Positions 43,970 to 48,661 of a DNA stretch of 58,108 nt are shown piece after piece. The stretch is from an uncultured SAR86 cluster bacterium. Its GTDB lineage: Bacteria > Pseudomonadota > Gammaproteobacteria > Magnimaribacterales > Magnimaribacteraceae. The stretch is taken from the NCBI GenBank assembly GCA_902532015.1, contig CACAGI010000007.1, positions 1-58,108 of the forward strand, read 5' to 3'. Made by a program: the position numbers and the translations under genes. Under the pieces are notes generated by a model that was not told where the DNA came from, did no database searches, and saw only the letters and a program-made list of their open reading frames with translations. Positions within the stretch are counted from its first letter, which is position 1. Each line of letters opens with the position of its first letter.

Positions 43970-43983
43970 TTGAATAATCATTG

Positions 43984-44763
43984 ATGAGTTCTTTCCTTTC
44001 AGAAGAAGAAAATAATTTCTATATAAATGAGGGCTACTTAGTTCGAGAAAATCAATTTACGATTGAAGAAGTAGATGCTTTAAGAGGTGCCCTTGAGAGA
44101 GCTGTTAATTCTGCACATGAAAAAGCAAATGAGGGAAAAGTCTATTATCTAGATAAAAAGAAATTCGTAGATGTCGGTTACATGACACTTCAGTATGAGC
44201 CTAAACCTAGTGAAGATATATTAAGAGTCATAGAACCAGCACATATTCTGGACGAGCAGCTGTATTCTCTTACAAGAGATAAGAGAATAACTGATCCAGT
44301 TAGATCTATCCTTAAAGAAACTGAAATTTCTCTTTGGACGGATAAATTAAATTTAAAAAGACCGAGAGGAGGGTCTGGCTTTGGGTGGCATCAAGACTCC
44401 CCATACTGGATTCATGACAGTAAGAATATAGATTTACTTCCTAATGTTTATTTATCTCTAGATGATGCTGATGAAGATAACGGTTGTTTTAGAGTTATAA
44501 GAGCTAGTCACAAAGAAGGATGTTTACCAGGAACTGCAGATGGAACTCAATTAGGAGGGTTTTATACTGATCCCAATTGCTTTAATGAAAGCGATGCAGT
44601 TAATTTAAGAATACCATCAGGGTCTTTAGTTTTTTTTAATCAGCACATTGTTCATGGCTCTGAACCGAACCTATCTGATCAACAGAGAAGGGCATACATA
44701 ATCACTTACCAGCCTAAAGATCAGCCTATGCTTAAATCAGGGGCCGTAATAAATATCAATTAA
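43984..44763 (+). CDS. Phytanoyl-CoA dioxygenase (PhyH) family protein, first paralogue
   Basis: Fe(II)/2-oxoglutarate oxygenase of 259 residues. Iron ligands are visible as His136 and Asp138 in FGWHQDSPYW and His224 in QHIVHGSEPN; Arg235/236 may bind 2-oxoglutarate. The substrate is unknown; relatives hydroxylate fatty acyl-CoAs, ectoine or small metabolites. The ATG at 43984 is used; a TTG one codon earlier is possible. It ends in a TTAA shared with a second PhyH gene facing it. Confidence 0.88.
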   Translation: MSSFLSEEENNFYINEGYLVRENQFTIEEVDALRGALERAVNSAHEKANEGKVYYLDKKKFVDVGYMTLQYEPKPSEDILRVIEPAHILDEQLYSLTRDKRITDPVRSILKETEISLWTDKLNLKRPRGGSGFGWHQDSPYWIHDSKNIDLLPNVYLSLDDADEDNGCFRVIRASHKEGCLPGTADGTQLGGFYTDPNCFNESDAVNLRIPSGSLVFFNQHIVHGSEPNLSDQQRRAYIITYQPKDQPMLKSGAVININ

Positions 44764-45656
44764 GTTTTTTCCCTTGTTGATCCTTTAACTAAATTTGCTG
44801 GGCTTGCTAATACAGTAAATTTATCCTTTTTATCACTAAAAATCTTTTCGGGAGTCACGGACTCAAGTTTACCATCTAGATTGTTAGGATCACTGTAGAA
44901 ACCCATTACATAGCCTCCTTTTGAGTATCCAATGAGCGATCTTAATTCAGGAGATAATTCTTTGGCTATTTCAGGAGGGCAAGATAAGTACTGGTTTTCT
45001 TGTTGTCTAATCCAACCCGGAGCGTAATGTATGAATATACCAGATCTTAAATCTTTAGAAGTATTATCCCCACCACCATGTAAAACAGAGCCTGTATATA
45101 TTAAGACTGATCCTTTCTTCATTTCTGCATAGGCTATCTCATTTTGTTTAGCTTCTCTTTTTGCATGCCATTTATGGGACCCTGGGACAAGTTGAGTGGC
45201 TCCATTCTCGTAAGTAAAGTCACTTGCAGCCCATACGACTGCAAATTGAGTTTCAATTTTTCGAGAAATATAACCCCCCCAAAGCCCTCTATCTCTATGA
45301 AGGATTTGTTTTGTCTCTCCAGGGCCAATAGTAATTAGAGAAGTGAAATGCAATTGATAATTATCGCAGTGAGGTTCTAGGAATTTAGCTGCAAGTGAAT
45401 TGATTTTTGTATGCAAGGCTAAATCGCGACATCCTTGTGATCTGGCTATTAATGCACCAACTCGGCTTGTTTGAAACCCTGTAAATTCATCTGCTCCCTT
45501 AAGGTTTCCTTTTATAAAAGGATCTAATTCATCCAATATTTTATCAATTTCACTTTCAGGAACTACATCATCGATAATGACTGCTGCATCGTTATCAATA
45601 ATCCCCAAAGCCTCTTCATTTGGTGTATCAATAGATATATGCTTAACTTCTGCCAT
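44760..45656 (-). CDS. Phytanoyl-CoA dioxygenase (PhyH) family protein, second paralogue
   Basis: 298 residues, a different PhyH subfamily from its neighbour. Metal site His120 and Asp122 in ILHRDRGLWGG and His193 in GSVLHGGGDN; Arg204 in DLRSGIFIHY is the likely 2-oxoglutarate ligand. VPGSHKWHAKR is typical of the family. The C-terminal region (about 220-260) forms an extension after the barrel. Substrate unknown. Convergent with the first paralogue, 36 bases downstream of an MBL-fold gene on the other side. Confidence 0.88.
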   Translation of the reverse strand: MAEVKHISIDTPNEEALGIIDNDAAVIIDDVVPESEIDKILDELDPFIKGNLKGADEFTGFQTSRVGALIARSQGCRDLALHTKINSLAAKFLEPHCDNYQLHFTSLITIGPGETKQILHRDRGLWGGYISRKIETQFAVVWAASDFTYENGATQLVPGSHKWHAKREAKQNEIAYAEMKKGSVLIYTGSVLHGGGDNTSKDLRSGIFIHYAPGWIRQQENQYLSCPPEIAKELSPELRSLIGYSKGGYVMGFYSDPNNLDGKLESVTPEKIFSDKKDKFTVLASPANLVKGSTREKT

Positions 45657-45692: not shown

Positions 45693-46424
45693 TTAAAGAA
45701 GTACTTCGTCACCTTTTTTTGTATACAGGTCAAATTCATTACTTTTTAATTCATGACCCTGATTTGTTGATAAGAAATATTTAATTAATCCTTTTACTTC
45801 GTTTGGCTGAGTTCCAGTAGCCATAATTTGCTTTGCACCTAACAAGGAAGCAATTCTCAATCCTTCTTTAAAATCCATCGAAAGTGTAATAAGTCCTAAA
45901 AATTTAACCTCATCTAGTGTAATTAAAACTGTATCGCATTTTTTCCCTATCCTTTTTAAGGCATTAAAATTAGCTGTATGACCTTCATGGAATAATACTT
46001 TGCCTTCATTATTTTCTAGAAAAAAACAAAATGCAGTCCAAGAGTAGGGAAATCCTGCAGGGAATATTGAGAGTTTGAAGGGTCCAAATTCCATACCCTG
46101 ATTATTAATGCAACAGATAGAGTTTTCAATTTGATTTTTAATTAGAATTTTTTTTACCTTCTTTGTGGTAACTATCTTAACCTTTTTATTAAGTTTTTTT
46201 ATAGAGGGAATGTGAAGATGATCTATAAATGGAGCTGTAATAATGACTATTTTAACTTTATCTAACTCATCTTGTGAAAGAGAAGACGCTTCATTTCTTT
46301 CTCTTTGCAGTAATACAGAATTTGATGGATTAAGTTTTTTATCTAACCATGGATCAATCAGCACTCCATAATCATCTTCCTCAATAAACCAAGTTTGGTA
46401 ATCGTCTGCTTTTACAACCCTCAT
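45693..46424 (-). CDS. MBL-fold protein with degenerate metal-binding motif
   Basis: 243 residues with a beta-lactamase-like fold of the UlaG/COG2220 type: LIDPWLDKKL near the start, ITAPFIDHLHIPS in place of the usual THxHxDH, LFHEGHTANFN in the middle and IMATGTQPNE later. Only the Asp-His of the first motif remains; the two preceding His are Ala and Phe. It may bind one metal or none. A similar DH-x-H form occurs in plant and cyanobacterial relatives. Function unknown. Confidence 0.72.
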   Translation of the reverse strand: MRVVKADDYQTWFIEEDDYGVLIDPWLDKKLNPSNSVLLQRERNEASSLSQDELDKVKIVIITAPFIDHLHIPSIKKLNKKVKIVTTKKVKKILIKNQIENSICCINNQGMEFGPFKLSIFPAGFPYSWTAFCFFLENNEGKVLFHEGHTANFNALKRIGKKCDTVLITLDEVKFLGLITLSMDFKEGLRIASLLGAKQIMATGTQPNEVKGLIKYFLSTNQGHELKSNEFDLYTKKGDEVLL

Positions 46425-47441: not shown

Positions 47442-47470
47442 TTTACAAAAATTAGATATTCTATTTTAAT
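47442..47470 (+). promoter_or_regulatory. Promoter of the bhmT-like gene
   Basis: TTTACA and TTTAAT are separated by exactly 17 bases. The predicted start near 47477 coincides with the first base of the riboswitch P1 stem, leaving a leader of about 126 bases. Confidence 0.7.
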
Positions 47471-47474
47471 GTGT

Positions 47475-47524
47475 AAGTCGGGATTTGATCCTATTGCTAC
47501 GACCTAAAAGAAAAGCTAAAACGG
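47475..47524 (+). promoter_or_regulatory. SAM-V/SAM-II-like riboswitch upstream of the bhmT-like gene
   Basis: P1 is GTCG (47477-47480) with CGAC (47500-47503). The loop carries GATTTGATCCTATTGC and the tail AAAAGCTAAAACGG. Loop CC-ATTGC pairs with tail GC-AA-GG (one U bulged), giving the H-type pseudoknot shared by SAM-II and SAM-V. SAM-V was described before bhmT in marine bacteria, which fits this gene. The class assignment between SAM-II and SAM-V is not settled by eye. Confidence 0.85.
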
Positions 47525-47602
47525 AAAAGGAAATTCCAGGATTTAACTAAGAACTAAATTGTCTATTGCGCAATCTAATTCATATCGTGGAGTGATAAAC
47601 AA

Positions 47603-48661
47603 ATGAAAAGAAAATTAATAGAAAGATTAGATAATGGTCCTGTGATTTGTGCAGAGGGATTTTTATTTGAGGTAGAAAAAAGGGGTTATTTAGCATCTGG
47701 TGAATTCGTTCCAATGGTTGCTTTAGAACACCCTGAAGCTCTCGAAAACTTACATAAGGATTTTCAACATGCCGGTTCAGATATAGTTGAGGCTTTTACA
47801 TACAACGGTCACAGAGAGAAAATGCGTGTAATTGGGAAAGAGGAGCTTCTCGAGCCACTTAACAGAGCTGCACTTAAGATAGCTAAAAAGGTAGCTGATA
47901 ATCCCATTGATGGAGGTGAACCGAATTTGATGGCAGGAAATATTTCTAATTCAAATATATGGAAAGAAGGTGATAATGATGCCCAAAACGAAGTTCATAG
48001 AATGTTTAGTGAGATGGTTGAATGGGCAGTAGATGAGGGCGCTGATATGCTAGTGGGCGAAACATTTTACTATGCTGAAGAAGCGTACAAGGCTTTAGAT
48101 ATTATCCAAAAATCTGGATTACCATCAGTAATAACAATAGCACCAATGGGTGTAAATACTATGATGGATGGAATTACTGTTTTAGATACCTTAAAAGAAC
48201 TTGAACAAAGAGGAGCTGACGTTGTTGGTATGAACTGTTTTAGAGGACCAGCAACTATGATGCCTTATCTAAGAGAAGCAAGAAAAGCTCTTAAGTGCCA
48301 TATGGCAGCTCTCCCCATACCTTTTAGGACCTCAGAAGCACATCCTACCTTCTTTAATTTACCTGATGATGATTCCTGTACATGTCCTGCCCCTCATGGC
48401 AGAACTTTTCCTACAGCTCTAGACCCTCTTTACTGCAATAGATATGAAATCCATGAATTTGGTAAAGAAGCAGCGAAGTTAGGAATTAACTATTTAGGTG
48501 TTTGTTGCGGAGCTACTCCTATGCACATAAGAGAGGTTGCTGAAGCAGCCGGTTTAGTCGTTCCTGCAAGTAAATATCGAGAAAAAATGGAAAATCATTT
48601 TATGTATGGTACTAATGAAAGAACGGCTGAACATATGCAGGATTTTGGAGATAAAGCCTAG
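47603..48661 (+). CDS. Betaine-homocysteine S-methyltransferase-like protein
   Basis: Homocysteine S-methyltransferase fold, 352 residues. Zinc ligands are Cys212 in GMNCFRG and Cys301/Cys302 in GVCCGATP. The C-terminal HEFGKEAAKLGINYLG segment and the following CCG are closest to BHMT rather than to MmuM or MetH, so the donor is probably glycine betaine or a dimethylsulfonio compound. A Cys-containing insert lies at about 246-278. Its leader holds a SAM-type riboswitch, so high SAM should lower expression. A GGAG site lies 10 bases before the ATG. Confidence 0.87.
   Translation: MKRKLIERLDNGPVICAEGFLFEVEKRGYLASGEFVPMVALEHPEALENLHKDFQHAGSDIVEAFTYNGHREKMRVIGKEELLEPLNRAALKIAKKVADNPIDGGEPNLMAGNISNSNIWKEGDNDAQNEVHRMFSEMVEWAVDEGADMLVGETFYYAEEAYKALDIIQKSGLPSVITIAPMGVNTMMDGITVLDTLKELEQRGADVVGMNCFRGPATMMPYLREARKALKCHMAALPIPFRTSEAHPTFFNLPDDDSCTCPAPHGRTFPTALDPLYCNRYEIHEFGKEAAKLGINYLGVCCGATPMHIREVAEAAGLVVPASKYREKMENHFMYGTNERTAEHMQDFGDKA

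Follow-up and report, generated by a model that had tools for sequence, protein, structure and literature searches.

Our comparisons show that the betaine-homocysteine methyltransferase gene (bhmT) of an uncultured SAR86 bacterium is preceded by a compact H-type pseudoknot aptamer at positions 47475-47524 (+) of the 58,108-nucleotide stretch of DNA analysed here (the window), which from its sequence is predicted to bind SAM and to switch as a SAM riboswitch of the SAM-II class, with a probability that we place near 0.85. The element is a SAR86-specific variant of SAM-II and not SAM-V, and since its aptamer core and contacts are those of SAM-II it does not found a class of its own. SAR86 is an abundant uncultured group of the surface ocean, and the window makes up contig C7 of a genome of 1.16 Mb that is 66% complete. 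A literature search that covered mostly open-access papers turned up no mention of SAM riboswitches in this group. What is new here is the variant specific to SAR86, together with its regulon, its occurrence in tandem and the way it differs from the canonical SAM-II that the lineage also has. The presence of SAM-II outside the Alphaproteobacteria is already reported, the class being known from Alpha-, Beta- and Gammaproteobacteria (PMC2704228).

Architecture of the bhmT leader

The bhmT gene (47603-48661 (+)) encodes a 352-aa protein of the betaine-homocysteine methyltransferase family (Pfam PF02574, E 1.8e-37), whose closest solved structures are the mammalian enzymes (PDB 1lt7/1umy, E about 4e-45). 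Because this product scores under the NCBIfam cut-off of the bacterial BHMT model, betaine is only its presumptive methyl donor. Its nearest relatives are SAR86 cluster bacterium records (91-93% identity), it is 74-77% identical to its SAR11 relatives, and in our tree the SAR86 copies cluster together (support 76/88). Elsewhere in the window, two convergent PhyH-family dioxygenase genes (43981-45656) adjoin the gene of a beta-lactamase-fold protein (45693-46424).

A promoter agreeing with 10/12 consensus positions can be read directly at 47442-47470 (+), with the -35 box TTTACA (47442-47447), a 17-nt spacer and the -10 box TTTAAT (47465-47470); a generic promoter scan reports nothing for this pair because it accepts only -10 boxes whose second base is A. 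In 52/70 SAR86 copies a -10-like box ends 6-9 nt upstream of the element, and this near-fixed distance therefore places the aptamer at the 5' end of the mRNA, in agreement with an earlier note on this DNA that had its start at the promoter +1.

All parts of the aptamer lie on the + strand. P1 is formed by GUCG (47477-47480) and CGAC (47500-47503) and shows compensatory changes, and the fifth P1 pair found in most relatives is G-A (47481/47499) in the window copy. The loop GAUUUGAUCCUAUUGC can be read at 47482-47497; it starts with the third (triplex) strand GAUUUG (47482-47487), whose UUU is (nearly) invariant in 78 copies, and ends with the 5' strands of the pseudoknot (47490-47497), CC (P2a, 47490-47491) and UUGC (P2, 47494-47497) with A47493 between them, whose pairs are kept in 97-99% of cells. 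Following P1 is the linker CUAAAAGAAAA (47504-47514), in which direct reading reveals no P3 stem between P1 and the P2 3' strands. The pseudoknot 3' strands (47515-47525) comprise GCUAA (P2, 47515-47519), A47520, GG (P2a, 47523-47524) and A47525, with GCUAAA again (nearly) invariant in 78 copies; here CC 47490-47491 pairs with GG 47523-47524, and UUGC 47494-47497 with GCUAA 47515-47519, leaving U47517 unpaired. Read directly, the sequence AAAAGCUAAAACGG ends at 47524, so that the P1, loop and tail described in the earlier note are all found where it had put them. Beyond lies a conserved 3' tail, AAAAGGAAAUUCCAGGAUUUAA (47525-47546), which we propose as the expression platform; an AGGAU-like sequence is present in about 67/78 copies, and the family consensus reads GGAA-n-UUCC-n-AGGAUUUAA.

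Model matches, conservation and covariation

In Rfam no family exceeds its own cut-off at 47475-47524. However, in a permissive search of 4227 families the two best are the SAM-II models RF01726 (E 9.4e-4; 28.5 bits against a cut-off of 44) and RF00521 (E 4.5e-3; 21.8 bits against a cut-off of 36), and nowhere else in the genome does RF01726 score better. Most tested SAR86 loci bearing the element likewise give significant SAM-II matches, although every Rfam score of these elements falls under the curated cut-off (24.8-34.4 against 36 bits). A second SAM-II match in the same genome, on contig C14 (L004), lies within coding sequence and was rejected as chance. The site shows similarity to the SAM-II models and has P1, the P2/P2a pseudoknot and the SAM-contacting bases. 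The earlier note was right that a BHMT gene is preceded here by an aptamer resembling SAM-II; the bacterium is a gammaproteobacterium of the SAR86 group.

The element lies 86-166 nt upstream of the start codon in the leaders of 27 SAR86 bhmT genes, and it is present in 28/28 intact full-length SAR86 bhmT copies (at least 80% identity), the copies without it being truncated or broken. When we searched 203 SAR86-order genomes with a covariance model built from SAR86 bhmT leaders, using P1 only, 63 of them yielded a total of 78 strong copies (E below 1e-6), a set that includes the training leaders by construction while the copies upstream of other genes are independent. In other SAR86 genomes the model detects the element with E about 1e-16 in front of genes unrelated to bhmT. 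Outside SAR86, 369 genomes spread over the class yielded just one match (G492), which we judged to be chance, and the element was not found in viral contigs and phages. The Rfam E value of 9.4e-4, the genome-best RF01726 place and the independent matches at about 1e-16 together argue that the pairing is more than chance.

The alignment of SAR86 leaders shows conserved pairing with compensatory changes in P1. Among 77 distinct sequences 97.3% of cells are paired, and shifting the partner strand by 1-3 columns reduces this to 27-51%, so the pairing of CC-ATTGC with GC-AA-GG proposed earlier is not only possible but kept in relatives. The outer pair of P1 covaries (AU, GC or UA), the fourth changes once from GC to CG, and the fifth is UG, UA or CG. 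P2a passes from C-G through U-G to U-A, a single compensatory (double) change within the pseudoknot, and P2 is nearly without variation, which is too little for strong covariation.

Genes downstream of the element across SAR86

Across SAR86 the element is found upstream of bhmT, metH, mmuM-type, AlkB-like, TonB receptor and putative lipoprotein genes. Many of the 78 copies thus stand in front of genes of the methionine cycle, namely bhmT, metH (six copies of the element; the one metH tested exceeds the TIGR02082 NCBIfam cut-off) and mmuM-type homocysteine methyltransferase genes (five copies). The AlkB-like membrane monooxygenase matches a solved alkane monooxygenase at E 9.5e-30, and in three related genomes (genus g14; L157 501-680, L167 501-685, L172 501-685) its gene is preceded by a tandem of two complete element copies 108-112 nt apart. 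The TonB receptor contexts fall into two groups, the putative lipoprotein is about 570 aa long with an HEYFH motif, and further contexts include small glycine-rich secreted proteins, a thioredoxin-like protein and a fatty acid hydroxylase. One locus, L174 (G090:C59), holds two copies, one before a carbonic anhydrase-like gene (by reading) and a second, degenerate one before the gene of an outer-membrane-like protein. We also considered a possible second functional copy in the window's own genome (C4:63606-63670 (-), L200), where the context, an orthologous TonB receptor gene, is real; however, the core is decayed, with GCUUAAA and with CAU replacing CGG, and the counterpart in relatives is intact.

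Since the same RNA precedes metH, mmuM-type, AlkB-like and TonB receptor genes in other SAR86 genomes, we propose that these genes form a SAM regulon in SAR86, apparently a circuit controlling sulfur and methyl metabolism throughout the lineage. With about ten kinds of gene behind such a SAM switch, a first testable map of sulfur and one-carbon control in this group would be available, and genes of unknown role (those of the AlkB-like enzyme, the TonB receptors and the secreted proteins) would be tied to the cell's methyl or sulfur state. Because the Rfam cut-offs miss it, the element is absent from present annotation.

Mode of action, ligand and alternative explanations

Our proposal is that bhmT transcription would start at or just before P1, and that when SAM is plentiful P1 and the P2/P2a pseudoknot would close around it. 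The closed P2a would sequester its GG and so free the downstream UUCC(A) strand (AUUCCA, 47533-47538 (+), a proposed anti-Shine-Dalgarno strand), which would pair with the bhmT Shine-Dalgarno site UGGAGU (47588-47593 (+), 10 nt upstream of the ATG by direct reading) and lower the translation of a methionine-making enzyme; when SAM is scarce the pseudoknot would open and the ribosome site become accessible. The OFF direction is suggested by the genes concerned and by the precedent of SAM-II and SAM-V. In folding calculations of the window leader AUUCCA pairs with the Shine-Dalgarno site when the aptamer is held folded, and the unpaired probability of the site is 0.21 in this state versus 0.75 otherwise. 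However, over 60 leaders the two states do not differ in mean accessibility (0.364 and 0.374), which leaves a general masking across all genes unsupported, and in the bhmT/mmuM group accessibility is only modestly lower than with shuffled linkers (0.305 against 0.42). Because masking is not general and the excess over shuffles is modest, the translational OFF switch, which is moderately supported as the likeliest mechanism, is our best current guess rather than a result, and a translational output is what we would somewhat favor.

The tail AGGAUUUAA (47525-47546 in the window) is almost as conserved as the aptamer, and no pairing for it is supported. A GGAA/UUCC hairpin was rejected as the switching helix, as it shows no covariation above shuffles and is impossible in metH leaders with GGAAUUCC. 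AGGAU is complementary to the aptamer AUCC and might pair with it, but the changes seen there are not compensatory.

It is also conceivable that the same SAM-II aptamer acts on transcription, through intrinsic or Rho-dependent termination, as do most known SAM-II riboswitches (PMC6061858); canonical SAR86 metY leaders carry a terminator, and a later hairpin is found in some long bhmT leaders. The window leader, however, has no terminator-like site after the aptamer, such as a transcriptional SAM-II with an intrinsic terminator would carry, outside the TonB groups the stretch from element to gene seldom contains a T-run of at least 6, and short leaders leave just about 20-25 nt from tail to ATG, all of which make this mode unlikely for the element.

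As for the ligand, the crystal structure of SAM-V, which is nearly superimposable on SAM-II, provides the positions of the SAM contacts (PMC6061858), and onto these we mapped the (near-)invariant columns 9-11, 18-21 and 46-49 of our 78 copies. The residues matching SAM-V U8, U9, U10, A18, U19, U20, U47 and A48-A50 are all (near) invariant. In the window, the UUU of the third strand (47482-47487) is the equivalent of U8-U10, which in SAM-V surround the adenine and the sulfonium of SAM (contacts from PMC6061858), and A47493 that of A18, and U47517 and A47520 are the predicted partner of the SAM adenine and the predicted contact of its amino-acid part, respectively (from PMC6061858). Together these suggest that the element binds SAM. 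One TonB-receptor subgroup (L187-L189, L191-L194, L196-L197) replaces GAUUUG with GCUUUG, in one copy GGUUUG, beside the SAM-contacting uridines, and most of its members are without the conserved 3' tail. This A to C change before the contacting UUU (8/78 copies, in TonB-receptor leaders) might signal a related ligand such as SAH, at least in the GCUUUG subgroup. We find this quite improbable, as the equivalents of U8-U10, U47 and A50, which set the preference for SAM over SAH, are retained, and in the window the third strand is the common GAUUUG.

Less probable still is the earlier note's reading of the element as a SAM-V riboswitch like those of SAR11 bhmT/metY leaders, in which the Shine-Dalgarno sequence lies inside P2a. 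The kind of pseudoknot, the gene family and the SAM-contact bases are indeed common to both (PMC6061858), and yet the SAM-V model RF01826 has no match at 47475-47524 or in any of 202 SAR86 genomes, while in the leader of a SAR11 bhmT the same model library detects SAM-V with a score of 76.8 bits. P3 is lacking, and the ribosome site lies ~65 nt past the aptamer (P2a ends at 47524, the Shine-Dalgarno site is at 47588-47593). Model searches and anatomy therefore largely refute membership in SAM-V, and of the two families named in that note RF00521 alone gave a match, below threshold. Least credible of all is that the element is an operator or other conserved DNA/protein-binding site, or a chance resemblance, with no RNA sensor: its core is extremely conserved and it abuts the promoter, but it lies downstream of it, matches the ligand contacts of a solved aptamer and has both P1 and P2a pairs that change in a compensatory way, the pairing collapsing when the strands are slid, so that covariation already disfavors this.

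Comparison with known SAM riboswitches

The SAM-II-class variant of SAR86 shares with SAM-II (RF00521, SAM_alpha; RF01726, SAM-II long loop, known from Bacteroidetes and marine samples (PMC2864571)) the H-type pseudoknot, P1, the UUU third strand, P2 and GCUAAA, the linkage to methionine genes and sub-threshold matches to both models. It differs in its P1 (NUCGY/RCGAN), in a P2a of 2-3 pairs, in having no terminator but the tail GGAA-n-UUCC-n-AGGAUUUAA, and in being found only in SAR86. Canonical SAM-II copies above the Rfam cut-off are present in 14 SAR86 genomes, so that aptamer class and organisms are common to both; unlike the element, however, SAR86 metY leaders have a GCGC/GCACC-type P1, and downstream of their canonical SAM-II come first a strand that complements the tail of the aptamer and then a terminator with T8-9 (CCUGUUUAGC anti-aptamer/terminator). 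In two loci (L208, L212) a canonical SAM-II precedes an outer-membrane gene (OmpW-like by reading), and in L208 a second SAM-II then precedes metY.

SAM-II and SAM-V are both known upstream of SAR11 bhmT (PMC5069961, PMC11508383). With SAR11 SAM-V (RF01826) the element has in common its fold class, its SAM contacts, its position before bhmT, a probably translational output and the sharing of its lineage with canonical SAM-II, whereas it has no P3, no RF01826 match and a ribosome site far downstream rather than in P2a. The SAM-II/SAM-V tandem of 'Ca. Pelagibacter ubique' bhmT serves an orthologous gene family (74-77% identity) and the same ligand class, but SAR86 bhmT has a single element, and SAR86 tandems are two copies of the same kind before the AlkB-like gene. 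The earlier suggestion that the same control operates here outside the alphaproteobacteria therefore holds in that a SAM-II-like element is present in SAR86, and is wrong as to sameness, because SAR11 uses a SAM-II/SAM-V tandem and SAR86 one element of its own type. In Francisella sp. SYW-9 (L048 2300-2520) a SAR11-like bhmT, 75% identical to that of the window, follows a SAR11-type SAM-II (GCGC P1), and gene and switch were likely transferred jointly.

Tentatively, SAR86 may have evolved its own compact translational branch of SAM-II (aptamer plus conserved AGGAUUUAA tail) beside ordinary transcriptional SAM-II and in parallel to SAR11 SAM-V, with a regulon reaching beyond methionine synthesis to the AlkB-like monooxygenase, TonB receptors and secreted proteins, and with a subgroup whose altered pocket may prefer another ligand. 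The comparison suggests that in two streamlined ocean lineages canonical SAM-II has independently acquired a partner, a further compact pseudoknot for SAM.
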